Source of the DNA: a virus
DNA: 25,710 nucleotides
IMG/VR virus record: IMGVR_UViG_3300017739_003074
Span: 1-25,710 of that record
Reading direction: 5' to 3' (one strand)
Shown: in pieces, positions 8,313 through 20,781 of the stretch
How the letters are laid out: each line of letters starts with the position of its first letter
How positions within the stretch are numbered: position 1 is the first letter of the stretch
Program-made: the position numbers and the translations under genes
Notes under the pieces: generated by a model
What the model was told of the DNA's origin: nothing
What the model saw: only the letters and a program-made list of their open reading frames with translations
The model's database searches: none

Positions 8313-8993
8313 ATGACTAAAGTGAACATGAATCTTTTAGAACTTACAGATTTAGAAAATATAAAACTCAAAACAATTAATCACGAGGGTAAAAGATATT
8401 ATCTCGGCGAAGATGATATGAAATATCCTAGTGTGACTACAGTTGTTGGTCTACATTCAAAAAAACAAATCAAACTCTGGCGTGAAAGAGTTGGTGAAAA
8501 AGAAGCAAACAAAATAACTACGAGAGCAACAAAACGAGGCACCTCGTTTCATCAACATGTAGAAGATTATCTTAGAAAAGAAAAAGACTTTATCGAGTTT
8601 GATAATATCTTACAAGAACAAATGTTTAAATCAGTTCAACCTATGTTAGATGAGATTATACCTATCGCTCTTGAAGCACCTTTGTATTCTCACGCATTGC
8701 AAATGGCAGGTCGTGTTGACTGTATCGGTATTGCACATGACAAACTTGCAATTATAGATTTCAAATCAAGTTCAAAACCAAAACAAGAATACATGGCTAA
8801 ACCTTGGTATTTACAAATGACTGCCTATGCAATTATGGTTGAAGAACTTACAGGTCAACCAATCAAAGAGATATGTGCCATTGTGGCAGTTGAGGGTTTA
8901 AATACATTTCAATTATTTGTTTCTGACCCGACAAAACATGTAGACGAGTTATACGGTCTTAGAAAACAATATAGAAACCTTTACGGTATATGA
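8313..8993 (+). CDS. PD-(D/E)XK exonuclease (MGME1/Cas4/RecB-like)
   Basis: A 226-aa single-domain nuclease. Motifs in order: TTRATKRGTSFHQHVEDYL with His80, Glu121 in ALEAPLYS, MAGRVDCIGIAHDKLAIIDFKSSS giving Asp136, Asp149 and Lys151 (D-x12-D-x-K), and YLQMTAYA (Gln168, Tyr172), the QxxxY motif of RecB-family nucleases. This pattern is that of MGME1-like exonucleases, known in T4-like marine phages as a probable recombination or replication exonuclease. No iron-sulphur cysteine cluster is visible, unlike Cas4. It is the first gene of the replication cluster and overlaps the following oxygenase by 4 bp. Confidence 0.88.
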   Translation: MTKVNMNLLELTDLENIKLKTINHEGKRYYLGEDDMKYPSVTTVVGLHSKKQIKLWRERVGEKEANKITTRATKRGTSFHQHVEDYLRKEKDFIEFDNILQEQMFKSVQPMLDEIIPIALEAPLYSHALQMAGRVDCIGIAHDKLAIIDFKSSSKPKQEYMAKPWYLQMTAYAIMVEELTGQPIKEICAIVAVEGLNTFQLFVSDPTKHVDELYGLRKQYRNLYGI

Positions 8994-9595
8994 TACACAT
9001 TTACGATAACGATAAACAAATGATTGCAGTAGTGCATGATTTTGTTTCACAAGAAGAGTGCGAAGAAATACTTGCATATTCTTGGCAAAATATGGAAAGA
9101 TCAACCGTTGCAAGTAAAGATGGCAAAGGCCAAAAGCATAGTAAACGGACAGGTTCAAATACATGGTTAAGTCACGATGCATCACCTATAATAAAAGATG
9201 TTGCAGAACGAATATCACAAATGGTGAGAATGCCATTACAGAATGCAGAACCTTTCCAAGTTGTGCATTACGAAGAAAATGAAGAATACGATTATCATTG
9301 GGATAGTTTTGACGAATCTGATGATGTCGCAACAGAAGAGTATACAAAGAATGGTGGTCAAAGATTGATTACTGTTTTAGGATATTTAAGAGATGTGCCG
9401 AAAGGAGGTGAAACTGGTTTTAATCATCTAGGTGTAAACATTCAACCTAGAAGAGGCAGTATCATCGTATGGTGGAATGTTGAACCTAATACAACAAAGA
9501 GAGAAATTAAATCTCAACATGCAGGTCTTCCTGTATTAGAAGGAGAGAAGTATGCTTTCAATTTGTGGTTTAGAGAAAAAGAGTTTATAAAATGA
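8990..9595 (+). CDS. 2OG-Fe(II) oxygenase, prolyl-4-hydroxylase type
   Basis: A 201-aa protein with a complete P4H core: FQVVHYEENEEYDYHWDSFD (iron ligands His103 and Asp105), the RLITVLGYLRDVPKGGETGF strand pair (GGET), RRGSIIVWWN, and SQHAGLPVLEGEKYAFNLWF with the distal His177 and the 2OG-binding Lys187. All ligands are present, so it should be active. Distinct in sequence from the oxygenase at 761-1384. It lies between the exonuclease and gp33, overlapping both by 4 bp. The substrate (protein proline or another group) is unknown. Confidence 0.88.
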   Translation: MIHIYDNDKQMIAVVHDFVSQEECEEILAYSWQNMERSTVASKDGKGQKHSKRTGSNTWLSHDASPIIKDVAERISQMVRMPLQNAEPFQVVHYEENEEYDYHWDSFDESDDVATEEYTKNGGQRLITVLGYLRDVPKGGETGFNHLGVNIQPRRGSIIVWWNVEPNTTKREIKSQHAGLPVLEGEKYAFNLWFREKEFIK

Positions 9596-13012: not shown

Positions 13013-13169
13013 AGGAAGTAAAAGAAGACCACAAATCGTATCAGACGATAAATTTCAAGAAGCATGGGATAATATCTTTGCTAGAAAAGTCACACCGCCA
13101 CATGCATCTACTCAGATGCACAAAGATAAAACTAAAGTAATTCCTAGAAAAGAAAAGTATAAAGATTAA
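13005..13169 (+). CDS. MGKGS family small phage protein
   Basis: Starts MGKGSKRRPQIVSDDKFQEAW, a form widespread among small phage proteins (MGKGSxxRP...F...W..IFG). The frame is open upstream to 12972, but the ATG at 13005 gives the family start, follows the previous gene with an 8-bp overlap, and gives 54 aa. C-terminal part basic (KDKTKVIPRKEKYKD). Last plus-strand gene before the convergent tape-measure block; the two stop codons overlap. Confidence 0.7.
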   Translation: MGKGSKRRPQIVSDDKFQEAWDNIFARKVTPPHASTQMHKDKTKVIPRKEKYKD

Positions 13170-15322
13170 CCATATAGTGAATGTATATGTTCACTTTGGC
13201 GAATATGATTATCTATAGGGTCTTTTCCATAAATATTCATTGTAGTATCATGTATAAAAGGATTAATTGAATTAAAACTTTGTAGATTGGTCTCTCGTTT
13301 AGGTCCAACAAAATCATCTTTTGTATCATTCATTTCATCAACTTTATTTTTTATCTCTTCAAAAGGCACAATCTCTAACATATCTTGGAATTTTATAAAA
13401 TCTTCTTCACTTAAATCATTCATCAAACCACCATATATTTTTGTTATAGCATCATCAGCGTATGTATCAGCGAAATATGAGACTCCAGCTGCTCCTAAAC
13501 TGGTAAGACCAAAAGAAATCGCACCTGGGATAGAAAAAGAGAATGGAGCGCTAGCCAGTTTAGCTCTAGCAAAAAATGTTCCAAAAGCACCGAGACCACC
13601 AGCAGTCGCACCAGCGATTTCTCCGGCTTTCTCTGCATTGAAAATACTCATTAATGTATCGTATTCATCTCCAGTCATTGGTCGAGGAATAGGTTCACCT
13701 GGAAATATGTAATGAAGTTTTGGACTTGGTATCATGGTATTAGATTCTTGATCATAAATTAATGTTGATTGTAATGCTTCAATTTTATCATCTACTGTGC
13801 CCATACCAATAAATGCATCTAGTCCTACAACTGCTATTGGAGCTCCAACTCTGAATGCATTTCCGAAAAATCTTTTTAATCTGGCGGAGTTTCCTTTAGT
13901 TTTTGTATCACTTGTTGCAACTGCATCTAAATCAAGTTCAGTCTGAACTGGTCCACCTGTTAAAATAGCTTGAACAGTTCTTTGAGCCGCCTTATAGATT
14001 TTTGTTCTCTTGTCTGGATTATTCCTCATTATCTCTTGATTCGTTTTCAAAATATCTTCTGTTGATTTTAGAGGAATACTTGTTGATGTAGCTACAGTAT
14101 TACCAGCACTGCTGATTAATTTTTGGTTAGCGGCAGCTGCCTTTGCAGTTGCCATAGCGGCTTGTATAGTGCCACCTTTCATCAATGCTCCGATACCATT
14201 TATTATAAAGGCACCTAGAGATGTAATATTACCTGAAAATACATTACTAATAGAGGCGCCAAGTCCAAGCAATATGGCTATCACACCAGCCAACATACCC
14301 ATACTTGCTTTACTTCTTATTCCTGCACTTTTATTTTCTTTTTTATCTTCGTCTAAAAGGTCTTCTAATATTTCAGTTTGTTCTTCTTGTTGTTCGAGAG
14401 TTTGCAAATTCATTGCTTCTTCTTCTCTTAATTCGTCTTTATATCTTTCAAAATCATCTCTCTCATCTAGAGCAGGCAAGGCATCTCTTATCGTTGTTCT
14501 AAATCTATCATAGACACTATCGGCTAAAATCACTTCATCTGACGACCCGCCACTAATATCAGAACTATCTTCTACTCGCATTTCTCCTGATTCAATTGCC
14601 TTTGCAATTGCATCTTCTGGTGTTTCAGTGGTACCAAGACCCTTAAACATACCACCTATTTTACCAGCAAAATCACCTACAGCTCTAAATGAACCTACAA
14701 AAATATCAAATACACCTTTAGCTTTGCTAAAAGTTGTTTTAACAGCATTTACTACAGGACCTAATGCACCCATACCATCTGTAAGGTTTGCAAAACCTTC
14801 TTTAACTTGATCTACTCCAGAATCTACCCCACCTGATACAAAATTCATAGTGCTTGATTTGAGAGAATCAGCTATTTTCATTATACCGTCTGGATTTCTG
14901 GTATCAAAATAATTTGACAACTTCATTAAATTGTCACTGGCTAATTGGCCGATTTTATCTTTAAAAGAAACATTTTTCATGTAATCTTTCATCAACTCGG
15001 CAGTTTCTCTAGTTCCTTTGTATTGTTCTATTAACTGTTGTCTTTGTTCTTCTGTTATGGTTTTAATTTCTTTTATCTGTTCAAGTGATAAATTCTTTAA
15101 TTCCCCTATAGCAGATGTAGTATCTTTGATTGCATCAGTTTCTTTGTAGATAGCCTTTTCGATCATCGTAGTAGATTGATCTTCATTCTCATCTAAGTTT
15201 TCTATTCTTTTTGTTGTTTCTTTTTGATCTTTTTGTAAATCGTTAATTTCAACGATTAAAGAACCTAGTAGTGTAGCTGGATCGTTTCCGAAAGCTGGAT
15301 TTGGTAATGTTCTTGTAGCCAT
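13166..15322 (-). CDS. Tail tape measure protein (gp29 position)
   Basis: A 718-aa protein, the longest in the window, following gp26 and gp51-like genes as T4 gp29 does. Residues about 20-115 are charged heptad-like helix, followed by Gly/Ala-rich amphipathic helices (FKDKIGQLASDNLMKLSNYF; DFAGKIGGMFKGLG), hydrophobic stretches (GMLAGVIAILLGLGASISNVF about 345-366; GAISFGLTSLGAAGVSYFA about 620), and a Gly-rich AGEIAGATAGGLGAFGTFFA. This make-up is typical of tape measures that set tail length and leave with the DNA. T4 gp29 is 590 aa, so a somewhat longer tail is expected. The homology to gp29 itself is not clear by eye. A late promoter abuts its ATG. Confidence 0.8.
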   Translation of the reverse strand: MATRTLPNPAFGNDPATLLGSLIVEINDLQKDQKETTKRIENLDENEDQSTTMIEKAIYKETDAIKDTTSAIGELKNLSLEQIKEIKTITEEQRQQLIEQYKGTRETAELMKDYMKNVSFKDKIGQLASDNLMKLSNYFDTRNPDGIMKIADSLKSSTMNFVSGGVDSGVDQVKEGFANLTDGMGALGPVVNAVKTTFSKAKGVFDIFVGSFRAVGDFAGKIGGMFKGLGTTETPEDAIAKAIESGEMRVEDSSDISGGSSDEVILADSVYDRFRTTIRDALPALDERDDFERYKDELREEEAMNLQTLEQQEEQTEILEDLLDEDKKENKSAGIRSKASMGMLAGVIAILLGLGASISNVFSGNITSLGAFIINGIGALMKGGTIQAAMATAKAAAANQKLISSAGNTVATSTSIPLKSTEDILKTNQEIMRNNPDKRTKIYKAAQRTVQAILTGGPVQTELDLDAVATSDTKTKGNSARLKRFFGNAFRVGAPIAVVGLDAFIGMGTVDDKIEALQSTLIYDQESNTMIPSPKLHYIFPGEPIPRPMTGDEYDTLMSIFNAEKAGEIAGATAGGLGAFGTFFARAKLASAPFSFSIPGAISFGLTSLGAAGVSYFADTYADDAITKIYGGLMNDLSEEDFIKFQDMLEIVPFEEIKNKVDEMNDTKDDFVGPKRETNLQSFNSINPFIHDTTMNIYGKDPIDNHIRQSEHIHSLYG
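13176..13195. terminator. Weak hairpin at the convergent junction
   Basis: Inverted repeat AGTGAA-8-TTCACT (13176-13181, 13190-13195) just after the plus-strand stop and inside the last codons of the minus-strand gene. A 6-bp stem without a strong T-run, so it is at best a weak bidirectional terminator. Confidence 0.3.
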
Positions 15323-15327
15323 TATAC

Positions 15328-15335
15328 TATTTATT
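15328..15335 (-). promoter_or_regulatory. Late promoter AATAAATA for the tape measure gene
   Basis: On the minus strand AATAAATA is followed by five bases (GTATA) and the tape-measure ATG, the same spacing as at 4927-4940. No Shine-Dalgarno is present between promoter and ATG. It overlaps the TAA of the preceding gene. Confidence 0.65.
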
Positions 15336-15730
15336 TACCTGTGTTTTCTATCTTTGCCATCAAAAGCTTTTCCTGCTTCTGATATACCAAAGGCACCTAG
15401 TGTCACAACAACAAACGATGTATAGATTGTTTCGGAAACTTTTAAGTCCATATCCCATACGATAGCAGTCACTAAGTCTGCTATACCGAATACAGTCATA
15501 AGAATAAAAGATATAAAACCTATGATAGATTTTTCATTAATGTCATTGTCATCTAAAAACAAATCCATCATTTTTCTTTTAGGTGGTGCAAGTTGAGCTT
15601 TGGCTTTACGAGCCTCTTCTTGCATCTCTTTAATTTTGTCTTCTTGCTCATCGAGTTGGTCGATAAGTGCCATATACTTATCTAAATCTATCTCGACTTC
15701 ATTTCTGTCATTATCGTTATCTTTAGCCAT
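15335..15730 (-). CDS. Membrane protein with coiled coil, in tail block
   Basis: A 131-aa protein: Asp-rich start (MAKDNDNDRNEVEIDLDKYM), a heptad-like helix (LIDQLDEQEDKIKEMQEEARKAKAQL, about 23-48), then two hydrophobic segments (SIIGFISFILMTVFGIADLV about 68-90; IYTSFVVVTLGAFGISEA about 101-118) and a basic tail. It has AAGGAA before its ATG. A membrane protein between tail chaperones and tape measure is unusual; a holin or a membrane-contact factor for DNA entry are options, but neither is shown. Confidence 0.75.
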   Translation of the reverse strand: MAKDNDNDRNEVEIDLDKYMALIDQLDEQEDKIKEMQEEARKAKAQLAPPKRKMMDLFLDDNDINEKSIIGFISFILMTVFGIADLVTAIVWDMDLKVSETIYTSFVVVTLGAFGISEAGKAFDGKDRKHR

Positions 15731-15732
15731 AA

Positions 15733-15927
15733 TTATTTCCTTTTATTATTAAGAGCCTTTATTCTTTCATTCTCTTTTTCAATATGTTGCATCAGAAGAT
15801 TTATGTAAATTTCCCTTTCCCATGGTAACATATTTTCTAATTCAGTTAATGAGTAATTGTGAGTTTGCATTAACTGAAAATTTGTTTTATAATAATTTTC
15901 TAATGTATCATGTGAAAGGGTTATCAA
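15733..15927 (-). CDS. gp51-like ORF, probably the frameshift extension of gp26
   Basis: A 64-codon frame that can be read from a TTG made by the last T's of a T8 run; no ATG occurs until residue 19 and no ribosome-binding site precedes either. The protein has ENYYKTNFQLMQTHNYSLTELENMLPWEREIYINLL and a charged helical tail. The M-L-P-W-E-R-E-x-Y motif is typical of small T4-like gp51/tail-assembly-chaperone C-terminal parts. It lies in the -1 frame relative to gp26 and overlaps its stop. Most likely it is made as a C-terminal extension of gp26 by -1 frameshifting; independent initiation at TTG is the alternative. Confidence 0.72.
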   Translation of the reverse strand: MITLSHDTLENYYKTNFQLMQTHNYSLTELENMLPWEREIYINLLMQHIEKENERIKALNNKRK

Positions 15928-16622
15928 AAAAAAGATTGTAAACCTTTCAAATTTATTTTATTCTCCGTGCCACAATTTGAACATTTATATTCGATGTTTT
16001 TTTCTAATGATGGCAAGTCATTAAAAAAATTCATAATTTCTGCGAACTGGTCAAGTGTAAGACTCTCAATAAAATTGTTTATCTCACTATCTGGAAAATC
16101 TTTTAGTTCATATATTTCACTTTCATCGTAAATTCTAACCATATTAGTTCTTAGTAATGGTTTTATTGCATCTACTTCTTGCAGTTCATCGACTATCAAG
16201 GCACTGCCGGCAGTCGGAAACTCTAACTCTATCATCAGACTATCACTAATTTGAATTTTATTTTCAGGTAATTTATCTGTATCTATTTTAATACTTTCTA
16301 AATCAACTGTTATGTCATGTTTATGTTGACAATTTTGACATTGTAGACCAATTTTAGATGTTTCACCTATAGATCGCATTCTTATTTGCAAAAATAGATA
16401 TTCTAAATCAACCATTGGTAATTTCAATGCATCAATTTTATCAAAAGTCACATGTGAAATTATATCACATATTGCATCAAATATTTCTTTTGCATTTTTT
16501 CCTTCTCTAGCCATCATCAAATTCTTTTGTTCTTTGACTAGAAATGGTCTAAATTTAACATTCTGTTTAGACAACGGCAAATGTGTATTAAAATTCGGTG
16601 TCTCTTGAACAGGTAATTTCAT
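15924..16622 (-). CDS. 26: gp26 baseplate hub assembly protein
   Basis: A 232-aa protein of the T4 baseplate-hub/gp26 type (Pfam T4_baseplate). N-terminus VQETPNFNTHLPLSKQNVKFRPFLVKEQKNLMMA is the family signature (P-F-x-V-K-E-x-K-x-L). Two CxxC pairs, Cys95/98 (LQCQNCQHKHD) and Cys214/217 (KCSNCGTEN), can form one zinc ribbon from distant halves. In T4, gp26 is needed for hub assembly. The gene order gp54-gp26-gp51-like-...-tape measure supports the call. GAGG lies before its ATG. The last seven codons contain the slippery T-run, so a longer gp26-gp51 product is predicted. Confidence 0.85.
   Translation of the reverse strand: MKLPVQETPNFNTHLPLSKQNVKFRPFLVKEQKNLMMAREGKNAKEIFDAICDIISHVTFDKIDALKLPMVDLEYLFLQIRMRSIGETSKIGLQCQNCQHKHDITVDLESIKIDTDKLPENKIQISDSLMIELEFPTAGSALIVDELQEVDAIKPLLRTNMVRIYDESEIYELKDFPDSEINNFIESLTLDQFAEIMNFFNDLPSLEKNIEYKCSNCGTENKINLKGLQSFF
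15927..15933 (-). other. Putative -1 ribosomal frameshift site (T TTT TTT)
   Basis: On the minus strand gp26 ends CAA-TCT-TTT-TTT-TGA. The heptamer T-TTT-TTT is in the right phase for tandem -1 slippage and sits directly before the stop. After slipping, reading continues TTG-ATA-ACC into the gp51-like frame. The run is eight T's in total. Confidence 0.65.
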
Positions 16623-18175: not shown

Positions 18176-19063
18176 CTAGTTTGTATAGATAACGAAGTTT
18201 TCTTTTACAACCTTTTCAGATGAATAAGGATATAGGGCAAGAAGATGTATTAAGTCTTGTTTTTTGAATTTGTAATTACCACTGTCAATGATTACACCTT
18301 TTGATTCTGATGTATCATCTGGTGAGTAATAGTTTGGTCTGATATACTCAAAGACATCATCTTCACAATCACCTATCAATATAGGTTTTTGAAAGTTAAA
18401 CATTGCACGAATACTTTGAACAGAACCTACAATGTCTTTTCTTTCTTCTTGCATATGCATTTCAAGTATTTGGCCATTATCATTAACTGCAAATATTTCT
18501 TTATCTGCTTTCTTAAAAATTTCATGCCATTCTTCGAATGATAATGGTGATCTTGGCCAACCAGAATTGGCCTCGGAAAATTTGTTATGTCTGTCCCAAA
18601 CAATAATTTTTTCATCGTATGCCTGTAGATATGAATGTGCATGTATACGAGAACAACCTGGATGCACGAACATATGATTTCCTTCTGTTAGTGCCTGCAT
18701 TGTAGAATGTAGACCAACAGTATTATATTGTTCTATAAGATACATAATCTTACAACAATGGTATAACATATTCTGTTCATTGTCAGCAGTTTGTTCAGAG
18801 AAGTTTTGCATGTCTATTGAATTGCCGTCTATACCTTTAATCAAAGCAATAACATGTTCTAAAAGTTTTTCTGTGCCATATCTTTGTGTGTTAGGTCCAT
18901 AAAGACCAACATTAATACATTCTTGTAATGTGACAAGATAAGGTTTTGAATGTCCAGATATGTAATCAAAACAATCTTTAGTTTCAGTAGTTATTGTAAA
19001 ATATCTTTTGAACTTTTCAAAATTGACATTGTTATTCATTGGTGTAATATCAATTATAGGCAT
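18176..19063 (-). CDS. Unknown 295-aa protein linked to the Kdo cassette
   Basis: Not recognised. Features: FDYISGHSKPYLVTLQECIN near the start, LLEHVIALIKGIDGNSIDM, a Cys-Cys helix, and HMFVHPGCSRIHAHSYLQAY with IIVWDRHNKF around residues 130-160. An H-P-G-x-S-R motif with following His residues suggests a binding or catalytic site. A strong GAGGAG precedes its ATG, and it overlaps kdsB by 14 bp, so it is co-expressed with the sugar genes. A glycosyl-transfer or sugar-processing role is only inferred from that. Confidence 0.75.
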   Translation of the reverse strand: MPIIDITPMNNNVNFEKFKRYFTITTETKDCFDYISGHSKPYLVTLQECINVGLYGPNTQRYGTEKLLEHVIALIKGIDGNSIDMQNFSEQTADNEQNMLYHCCKIMYLIEQYNTVGLHSTMQALTEGNHMFVHPGCSRIHAHSYLQAYDEKIIVWDRHNKFSEANSGWPRSPLSFEEWHEIFKKADKEIFAVNDNGQILEMHMQEERKDIVGSVQSIRAMFNFQKPILIGDCEDDVFEYIRPNYYSPDDTSESKGVIIDSGNYKFKKQDLIHLLALYPYSSEKVVKENFVIYTN

Positions 19064-19802
19064 TTAAAAACTCCTCGACTCTTTTTAAGTCATCTTGTGT
19101 ATCTACGGATAATCCGTGATCTTCTACTTCTATCATTTTAATTGCAAAACCATTTTCAATGTATCTCAACATTTCTACTGATTCTGCTTTTTCTAATTCG
19201 CCAACTTCTAGTTCTACAAACAATTCTAACATATGACGATTGAATGCATATAGACCTAATTGTTGTTTGAAAGGCACCTCTTCTTTCTTATGAAAAGGTA
19301 TACCAAATCTTGAATAGTAAACTGCATTGTTGCTCAGATCAGTCACAACTTTTACAACATTACTATCATGTAATTTATAATTATCATTGACATAGACATA
19401 CGCATTACCAATACCAATAGACTTATCAAACTGTTCTACTAAAGTATCTATTGCATCAGGATTGATTAGTGGTTCATCGCCTTGAATGTTTACGAATACA
19501 TCACCGTCAATCAACTCGATCGCTTTCGCACATCTGTCTGTTCCAGAACGCACATCATCATCTATTACTATGCAACGCATTTCATGTTTTGCACAATACT
19601 CATTTACTTTTTGATTGTCAGTTAATACTACAACTGTATCTAATTTTTCTGATGCACATGCCTGGTCGTAAACTCTACGAATCATTGGCACGCCATTAAT
19701 TAACGCCAAAGGTTTACCTTCGAAACGAGTCGAATGCCACCTTGCTGGTATTAATCCAACAACGAGTTTAGATTCTCTATCGATTTTACTGAGTGATCGC
19801 AT
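19050..19802 (-). CDS. kdsB: CMP-Kdo synthetase (KdsB)
   Basis: 3-deoxy-manno-octulosonate cytidylyltransferase, which makes CMP-Kdo from CTP and Kdo for lipopolysaccharide or capsule. A 250-aa protein, full length for the family. Motifs: GLIPARWHSTRFEGKPL (16-32) for CTP binding, SGTDRCAKA (86-94), VNIQGDEPLI (104-113) with the metal-binding Asp, and the late SVDTQDDLKRVE. The start at 19802 gives a 52-bp overlap with the phosphatase gene; no other start codon precedes the family core. Activated sugars of this type are rare outside cell-surface pathways, so the phage probably modifies the host surface or one of its own proteins. Confidence 0.9.
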   Translation of the reverse strand: MRSLSKIDRESKLVVGLIPARWHSTRFEGKPLALINGVPMIRRVYDQACASEKLDTVVVLTDNQKVNEYCAKHEMRCIVIDDDVRSGTDRCAKAIELIDGDVFVNIQGDEPLINPDAIDTLVEQFDKSIGIGNAYVYVNDNYKLHDSNVVKVVTDLSNNAVYYSRFGIPFHKKEEVPFKQQLGLYAFNRHMLELFVELEVGELEKAESVEMLRYIENGFAIKMIEVEDHGLSVDTQDDLKRVEEFLNAYN

Positions 19803-20344
19803 TTTCCATAACCATAACTTGCATGTATAAAGTCTATACCTGCCCTTGTAGCCGCTTCATAGTCGACTTGCATGTCTCCTATGTAGACTGCATCTTTAGG
19901 GTCAGTGTGTGTCATTGCAAGACAAAAAAGAATCTGATCTGGTGCTGGTTTGCCTCTCATACCTTTTTTAGGACTTACTACATAATTAAATTCTACATCT
20001 AAATGTTCTAGAATTACATTTGTTCTCTCAGCAGTCTTTGATGTGACTACTGCAATCTTACTATTCTTCTTTATTTCTTTTAATGTGTCTTCTACACCAT
20101 CGTAAAACTCTAAGCAATACTCCATGAGTTCTAAAGATGTCTTATCATAAGTGTGTTTGACTGCTTCAACATTTTCAACATTCAATTCTTTCATGATATC
20201 ACGAAAAGGTTTGCCTATCTGTTTAAAATAATCATCAAATGTTTGAGTTAATTTATGTTCTAACATGCATGTGTTCCATGATTGTTCCATCATGTGTTTA
20301 GAATCTATAATAACGCCGTCTAAGTCAAAAATATATGTTTTCAT
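19751..20344 (-). CDS. HAD-family phosphatase (PGP/beta-PGM-like)
   Basis: A 197-aa haloacid-dehalogenase-type hydrolase. Motif I is FDLDGVIID (6-14) with Asp7 and Asp9, motif II AVVTSKT, motif III lysine in RGKPAPD, motif IV YIGDMQVDYEAATRAG. A small helical cap lies between motifs I and II. Coupled to gp4 by ATGA and overlapping kdsB, so it could supply free Kdo from Kdo-8-phosphate or act on another sugar phosphate; the sequence is of the phosphoglycolate-phosphatase type and not the KdsC type, which leaves the substrate open. Confidence 0.85.
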   Translation of the reverse strand: MKTYIFDLDGVIIDSKHMMEQSWNTCMLEHKLTQTFDDYFKQIGKPFRDIMKELNVENVEAVKHTYDKTSLELMEYCLEFYDGVEDTLKEIKKNSKIAVVTSKTAERTNVILEHLDVEFNYVVSPKKGMRGKPAPDQILFCLAMTHTDPKDAVYIGDMQVDYEAATRAGIDFIHASYGYGKCDHSVKSIENLNSLLD

Positions 20345-20781
20345 TTTTTTGGTAGTAGTTGGTCTTCTGTAAGTATTCTAAAACTGTATCTTCTATCTTT
20401 ACAATACTCTTCAGCCGCTTTAAATTTTGCTTGATTTTTAATATATGTTGCAACTTCATTGAGATATCGTTTAGTTTTTCGCTTCGGTTGTTTCGGAGGC
20501 GAAAGATGTTTCTTCGGTTTTACTTCAATGATTTCACGAACTACTTTTTTATCCTTATTAATATATTTTACATAAAAATCGGGGAAATATCTATGGGTTT
20601 TTTGATCTAAAGGCGATTTATATGGTATTATTATCTCTTCACTGCCCCATTCTATGATTTTTGAGTTATTATCGCAGTAAACCATAAATCTTCGCTCCCA
20701 AAGTGAGCGATAAAAGATTTTTGTAGGGTCACCTCGATATTTTTTGTAATTCTTAGGTTTAAACTTACCACTATACGACAT
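20341..20781 (-). CDS. 4: gp4 head completion protein / nuclease
   Basis: T4 gp4 (also gp50/4) completes DNA-filled heads before tail joining. The 146-aa protein matches it throughout: NYKKYRGDPTKIFYRSLWERRFMVYCD, IIEWGSEEIIIPYKSPLD, THRYFPDFYVKY and IIEVKPKKHLSPPK. Glu29, Asp68, Glu86 and Lys88 make a PD-(D/E)XK (TnsA-like) nuclease site. It is the first gene of the minus-strand block, divergent from gp48. Its ATG overlaps the plus-strand late promoter of gp48. Confidence 0.93.
   Translation of the reverse strand: MSYSGKFKPKNYKKYRGDPTKIFYRSLWERRFMVYCDNNSKIIEWGSEEIIIPYKSPLDQKTHRYFPDFYVKYINKDKKVVREIIEVKPKKHLSPPKQPKRKTKRYLNEVATYIKNQAKFKAAEEYCKDRRYSFRILTEDQLLPKK

Follow-up and report, generated by a model that had tools for sequence, protein, structure and literature searches.

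The gp26 gene of an uncultured T4-superfamily phage and the open reading frame that follows it in the -1 phase very probably constitute a single tail assembly chaperone gene, whose two products would arise through -1 ribosomal slippage. The DNA analyzed here (the window) is the whole 25,710-base record of an uncultured virus that, judged by its gene content, is a T4-superfamily phage. The original prediction held that a frameshift fusion of this kind was undescribed in the T4 family; this was mistaken, as such frameshifting has already been published for T4-like phages (PMC10885494, PMC12846349), and the window adds a well-supported example to a known kind instead of revealing a new one. It does correct an annotation: the -1 frame belongs to the gp26 gene, yet no annotated record that we examined joins both frames, and gp51 appears in those records as a separate gene, as a hypothetical protein, or not at all.

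The slip site and its surroundings

The features of the region, all on the minus strand of the window, are as follows.

15924..16622, minus strand: gp26-like protein, 232 aa (Pfam T4_baseplate, PHROG 150); putative unshifted short chaperone form (TAC-N / 'G')
15926..15933, minus strand: 8-T run holding the in-phase heptamer T_TTT_TTT (15927-15933), with the gp26 stop TGA directly next
15736..15927, stop 15735-15733, minus strand: -1 frame extension, 64 residues; putative gp51-like C-terminal part of the long form (TAC-NC / 'GT')
15733..16622, minus strand: predicted 296-aa gp26-gp51 frameshift fusion, from an in-silico -1 shift at the heptamer
15943..15947 (approximate), minus strand: Shine-Dalgarno-like AAAGG, ~9 nt before the heptamer, candidate stimulator by anti-SD pairing
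15837..15926, minus strand: weak AU-rich hairpins 3' of the slip, candidate stimulator by folding energy
15335..15730, minus strand: 131-aa ORF that includes a hydrophobic, transmembrane-like segment; it separates the gp51-like frame from the putative tape measure gene
13166..15322, minus strand: putative tape measure protein, 718 aa, from position and length

The gp26 frame ends TCT TTT TTT TGA (sequence at the slip site, TCTTTTTTTTGA), so the coordinates, the phase and the perfect heptamer before the stop had been predicted correctly. Exactly -1 to this frame lies the gp51-like frame of 64 codons, and a computed -1 shift on T_TTT_TTT yields a fusion of 296 aa, in agreement with the predicted length of about 296, with GLQSFFLITLSHDTLEN as its predicted junction peptide. 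The gp51-like frame had been described as having neither an initial ATG nor a ribosome-binding site. This is borne out: its first ATG is 19 codons in, and the TTG that overlaps the gp26 stop (15927-15925) has no good Shine-Dalgarno sequence at normal spacing. An in-phase heptamer near the end of gp26 and an open second frame at -1 are the features of a TAC-N/TAC-NC pair.

Profile searches place both parts in baseplate families. The gp26-like protein matches Pfam T4_baseplate (PF12322) over profile positions 2-218 of 219 (E 2.6e-57; 194.5 bits against a curated cut-off of 24.5 bits) and PHROG 150, 'baseplate hub' (E 6.8e-56). The -1 frame covers positions 58-119 of 121 in PHROG 634, the 'baseplate hub assembly catalyst' family (E 3.8e-27), the same profile region that the C-terminus of T4 gp51 matches, and the last 64 residues of the fusion also match the last part of PHROG 150. 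The gp26-like protein carries two CxxC pairs; its AlphaFold model (pLDDT 86.5) matches models of T4-like gp26, and a Foldseek search of the PDB returned only a very weak match to a known tail assembly chaperone, HK97 2ob9_B (E 1.7, probability 0.28, TM 0.20/0.39).

The putative chaperone pair lies upstream of the putative tape measure gene. The gp51-like frame had been placed one gene before the tape measure, which requires amendment, as the 131-codon ORF (15730-15335) intervenes and the two do not directly adjoin. Searches of Pfam and PHROG gave no significant family match for this small ORF and none of its own for the 718-aa protein; in HTVC008M the gene at the corresponding position carries the annotation 'putative tail tape measure'. 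The place of the 131-aa ORF is also taken by a small ORF in HTVC008M, Melnitz, IG49 and phiM7.

Conservation among relatives

The T run is not rare in itself, an argument that we rejected: the AT-rich window contains 21 occurrences of TTTTTTT where 29 are expected, and its genes hold 53 in-phase XXXYYYZ heptamers. Since T7 runs alone prove nothing, the test had to be comparative. From IMG/VR and named phage genomes we collected homologues of gp26 together with the DNA downstream of them, and assembled a main set of 156 loci in which gp26 has a phenylalanine pair near its end (the F-L of phiM9 was counted), falling into 29 clusters at <70% identity. The truncated or broken ORFs L067 and L159 were excluded, as were the motif-free genes of two distant phages, Vibrio phage K351 (L092) and Klebsiella phage phi1_146021 (L093). 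The original prediction turned on whether relatives share the slippery run at the junction, and they do: an in-phase T_TTT_TTY/G is found at 156/156 loci (T_TTT_TTC at 141, T_TTT_TTT at 14 and T_TTT_TTG at one), each followed by an open -1 frame; on contigs of sufficient length this frame spans 56-68 codons. Atu_ph07, S-B68, BUCT-ZZ01, S-RIM44 and ACG-2014f, added later, have T_TTT_TTC, and RHph_I1_18, also a later addition, has T_TTT_TTA. The gp26 frame of Mosig runs 8 codons beyond the slip, and the site and the -1 protein are still conserved. K351 and phi1_146021 have a gp51-like ORF in the -1 frame (MPWH motif) without a T heptamer; the start codons that lie close to the gp26 stop or beyond it point to separate translation in these two phages.

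The probability that all 29 clusters would use NNT-TTT by chance, conditioned on the pre-slip residue and codon usage of each lineage, is log10 -16.7 (~10^-17), a figure that is only approximate because the clusters are not fully independent. TTT is used even in GC-rich phages such as Mendera, phiM9 and IG49, whose own codon bias runs the other way. As judged from these comparisons, the combination of position, phase, a homologous -1 frame and conservation at 156/156 loci is far beyond chance, and it supports the predicted programmed -1 frameshift that would extend gp26 by a gp51-like part, after the logic of G/GT.

Coding constraint on the -1 frame

Upstream of the slip, the -1 frame contains no ATG, GTG or TTG in any of the 29 representatives and is closed by a stop 2-11 codons away. 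Downstream, the first 18 codons of the frame lack ATG, GTG and TTG at 74 of the 156 loci. Among the 41 distinct start-less sequences, differences at -1-frame codon positions 1, 2 and 3 number 1023, 592 and 2113, and stops occur in 0 (the -1 frame), 33 and 40 of the 41 sequences in the three frames; all 90 distinct sequences show the same -1-frame coding pattern. Residues from just past the slip onward are common to the set (a conserved L, Y-Y/F and N-F). By this substitution pattern the start-less 18-codon stretch evolves as -1-frame protein: the second frame lacks a start of its own, yet is constrained, with the overlapping TTG to be noted in the window. The predicted absence of an ATG is thus conserved in part. 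It does not extend to the Vibrio, Caulobacter, Sinorhizobium and Stenotrophomonas lineages or to some cyanophages, which have an ATG 2-4 codons past the slip, in some cases as a TGATG or TAATG overlap, and nevertheless keep the heptamer. Where an ATG follows the slip by 2-4 codons, gp51 could also arise separately.

T4-type gp26 and gp51 as a control

T4 relatives carry gp51 as a separate, already fused paralogue of gp26. Both T4 proteins match Pfam T4_baseplate, the first 201 residues of the 249-aa T4 gp51 doing so with E 3.9e-52; on PHROG 150 the match of T4 gp51 runs the full length (13-280 of 282), whereas that of T4 gp26 stops at 235. A profile of the frameshift fusions aligns with T4-type gp51 end to end across the junction (E 1.4e-24), and the -1 extensions alone match its C-terminus (E 9.7e-11). 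These alignments indicate that T4 gp26 is the counterpart of the unshifted product and T4 gp51 that of the shifted one; T4 encodes them as two divergent genes without a slippery site. With gp51 separate, T4-type gp26 needs no shift, and most T4-type gp26 genes examined end GLKEFF, coded GAG/GAA TTC TTT, which is non-slippery; in three more distant ones the FF itself has drifted. This amounts to a natural experiment in which the FF residues are identical and slippery codons are found only where a shift is needed. In one T4-type contig (L176) the gp51 frame at 1801-2546 is broken into pieces, through either an error or a genuine disruption.

Both T4 proteins have been listed as chaperones of hub assembly, and gp51, though needed for assembly, is not found in the particle (PMC3004832). 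Our comparison supports the view, already published, that the essential and long unexplained gp51 of T4 is the long form of a tail assembly chaperone. A broader reading, drawn from cyanophages, pelagiphages and freshwater, Vibrio, rhizobial and Caulobacter phages, is that the T_TTT_TTY -1 frameshift is the general state of the T4 superfamily, and that the T4 lineage duplicated the gene, fused the second copy and erased the slippery codons while keeping the FF. We offer this reading tentatively, as a possibility that we would not yet call probable. A single duplication in the T4 lineage predicts that T4-type gp26 and gp51 form one clade, and this topology was not rejected (p-AU 0.29), in a tree where the T4-type gp51 branch is very long, too long to date the duplication.

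Alternative explanations

The original prediction had warned that the true run might have seven T's, in which case gp26 and gp51 would be one continuous gene misread through an assembly or sequencing error. An 8-T homopolymer is a classic place for indels. The same 8-T run followed by a stop is nonetheless present in the isolates HTVC008M and Melnitz and in independent contigs (L157-L165), and because isolate genomes share it, it is not an assembly error; we rejected sequencing error on the same isolate genomes, which also answers the earlier worry. Moreover, 142 relatives have only six T's and then a C, with the frames still -1 apart, and a run of seven T's would drop one of the two phenylalanines conserved in relatives, whereas the frameshift product aligns without a gap. 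We consider this explanation extremely unlikely. Less credible still is that the T run is a by-product of the conserved FF and of AT richness, with no frameshift at all. T7 runs are indeed as common in the window as expected, and the FF is conserved in T4-type gp26 too, but there it is coded TTC TTT after a purine, whereas at every main-set site the pre-slip codon has T in third position and the first F is coded TTT, GC-rich phages included (~10^-17). The start-less -1 frame under coding constraint is likewise at odds with such a by-product.

Two further explanations accept that the -1 frame is translated and differ on how. Re-initiation or a non-canonical start past the gp26 stop, such as the window's TTG (15927-15925), would give gp51 as a separate, unfused protein. 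The overlap of that TTG with the stop fits this explanation, as do the TGATG/TAATG overlaps or nearby ATG codons of several lineages and the separate annotation of gp51 in most records. It is very unlikely all the same: the slippery heptamer is kept in every main-set lineage, start or no start, the first 18 codons are conserved as protein even at the 74/156 loci that offer no start there, and in T4 gp51 a gp26-like domain is part of the natural protein. Alternatively, the fusion could result from transcriptional slippage, RNA polymerase adding or dropping a base on the 8-T run. A run of this length is long enough for polymerase slippage, and the window, HTVC008M, Melnitz and L165 all have one. 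In 142/156 relatives, however, there are only six T's, interrupted by C in T_TTT_TTC, a sequence ill suited to polymerase slippage but ideally suited to the slippage of tandem tRNAs, and the strictly conserved codon phase is something that polymerase slippage would not need; on this account we regard a transcriptional origin as improbable.

Proposed mechanism and candidate stimulators

The preferred reading is thus one gene with two products through -1 ribosomal slippage, gp26 and gp26-51 being most likely chaperones of the G/GT type by analogy with lambda. Most ribosomes would stop at the TGA and release the 232-aa gp26 as the short form. In a minority, the tRNA-Phe molecules in the P and A sites on T_TTT_TTT would slip back one base and re-pair on the T run, and these ribosomes would read 64 more codons, making the long form, the 296-aa gp26-gp51. 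If the pair works as gpG/gpGT do in lambda, both forms would coat the tape measure protein with their gp26 part; the gp51 tail, present in the rare form alone, would bring in components of the tail tube or hub, and the tube would be built around the tape measure. The heptamer, its phase and conservation, the constraint on a start-less -1 frame and the homology of the fusion to T4 gp51 are observed; that ribosomes slip during infection, how often they do so, and that the products act as chaperones we infer. Counting against this reading are the ATG 2-4 codons past the slip in several lineages, the two distant heptamer-free loci (K351, phi1_146021), the very weak PDB match of the gp26 model to a known chaperone, and the lack of a strong downstream structure shared by all lineages.

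Nearly all representatives have a Shine-Dalgarno-like stretch ~9-10 nt before the heptamer, with a mean anti-SD pairing energy of -6.2 kcal/mol against -1.9 kcal/mol elsewhere in gp26 (29 representatives). An upstream stimulator of this type is known from dnaX, and the stretch is possibly a frameshift stimulator here, a suggestion only, because the signal is confounded by the conserved (E/K/R)-G-L residues that it encodes. Downstream of the slip, the predicted weak AU-rich hairpins of the window (15837..15926; -11.8 kcal/mol, z -3.65) are also a possible stimulator, the first 40 nt having a z of only -0.86. No strong downstream RNA structure is common to all lineages among the 29 representatives; strong hairpins occur in IG49, L165, L110, L128 and Cr30 and not in other lineages, and we therefore rejected a universal downstream RNA stimulator.

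Relation to known systems

The lambda pair gpG/gpGT likewise comprises a short form and a rare long form, the latter made by a -1 shift close to where the first frame ends, and the locus precedes the tape measure gene. Lambda slips on GGGAAAG, whereas the heptamer of the window is T_TTT_TTT; the short protein of the window is larger and carries the two CxxC pairs. No lambda-type chaperone family was among the Pfam or PHROG matches. The lambda proteins and the conserved tail-chaperone frameshift were described by Levin (1993) and by Xu, Hendrix & Duda (2004) (cited in PMC5009743). Phage P2 gpE/gpE+E' is similar in having a contractile tail and a -1 shift on a T-rich heptamer before the tape measure gene. 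The P2 heptamer is T_TTT_TTG, and our Pfam and PHROG family searches returned no P2-type family. The P2 system was reported by Christie et al. (2002) (cited in PMC12859696). The chaperone frameshift of Vandenendeviridae and Andersonviridae, which uses a GTTTTT motif, shares with the window a T-rich slippery site, a conserved open -1 frame and a downstream ORF misannotated as a separate gene; these are other phage families, and the likeness is one of described features (PMC12846349).

Closest is the work of Vladimirov, Gautam and Davidson (Virology 2022), who identified the tail chaperone genes of T4-like phages. By its title and the papers that cite it, that study concerns the same genes in a short and a long form, the window representing another, uncultured lineage. 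The PRFect paper credits to it the statement that some T4-like phages have one short gene and one longer fused gene without frameshifting (PMC10885494), and the paper on phage Adele cites it for the slippery poly-T sequences that T4-like phages carry in their TAC-N genes (PMC12846349). Each piece of the superfamily reading may already be contained in that study; what may be absent from it is the breadth of the reading, together with the direction of change and the negative control at codon level.

Other observations in the window

An in-phase A_AAA_AAA heptamer lies three codons from the end of a head-closure gene (20341-20781, minus strand), which overlaps the start of the next gene, a HAD-family hydrolase; this heptamer is probably there by chance. 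Overlapping sugar-metabolism-like genes, encoding a cytidylyltransferase (CTP_transf_3) and a HAD hydrolase, lie within the tail/head module (19050-20344, minus strand). The plus-strand genes at 761-1384 and 8990-9595 are both 2OG-Fe(II) oxygenase-like but differ from each other (Pfam 2OG-FeII_Oxy_5 and _3).
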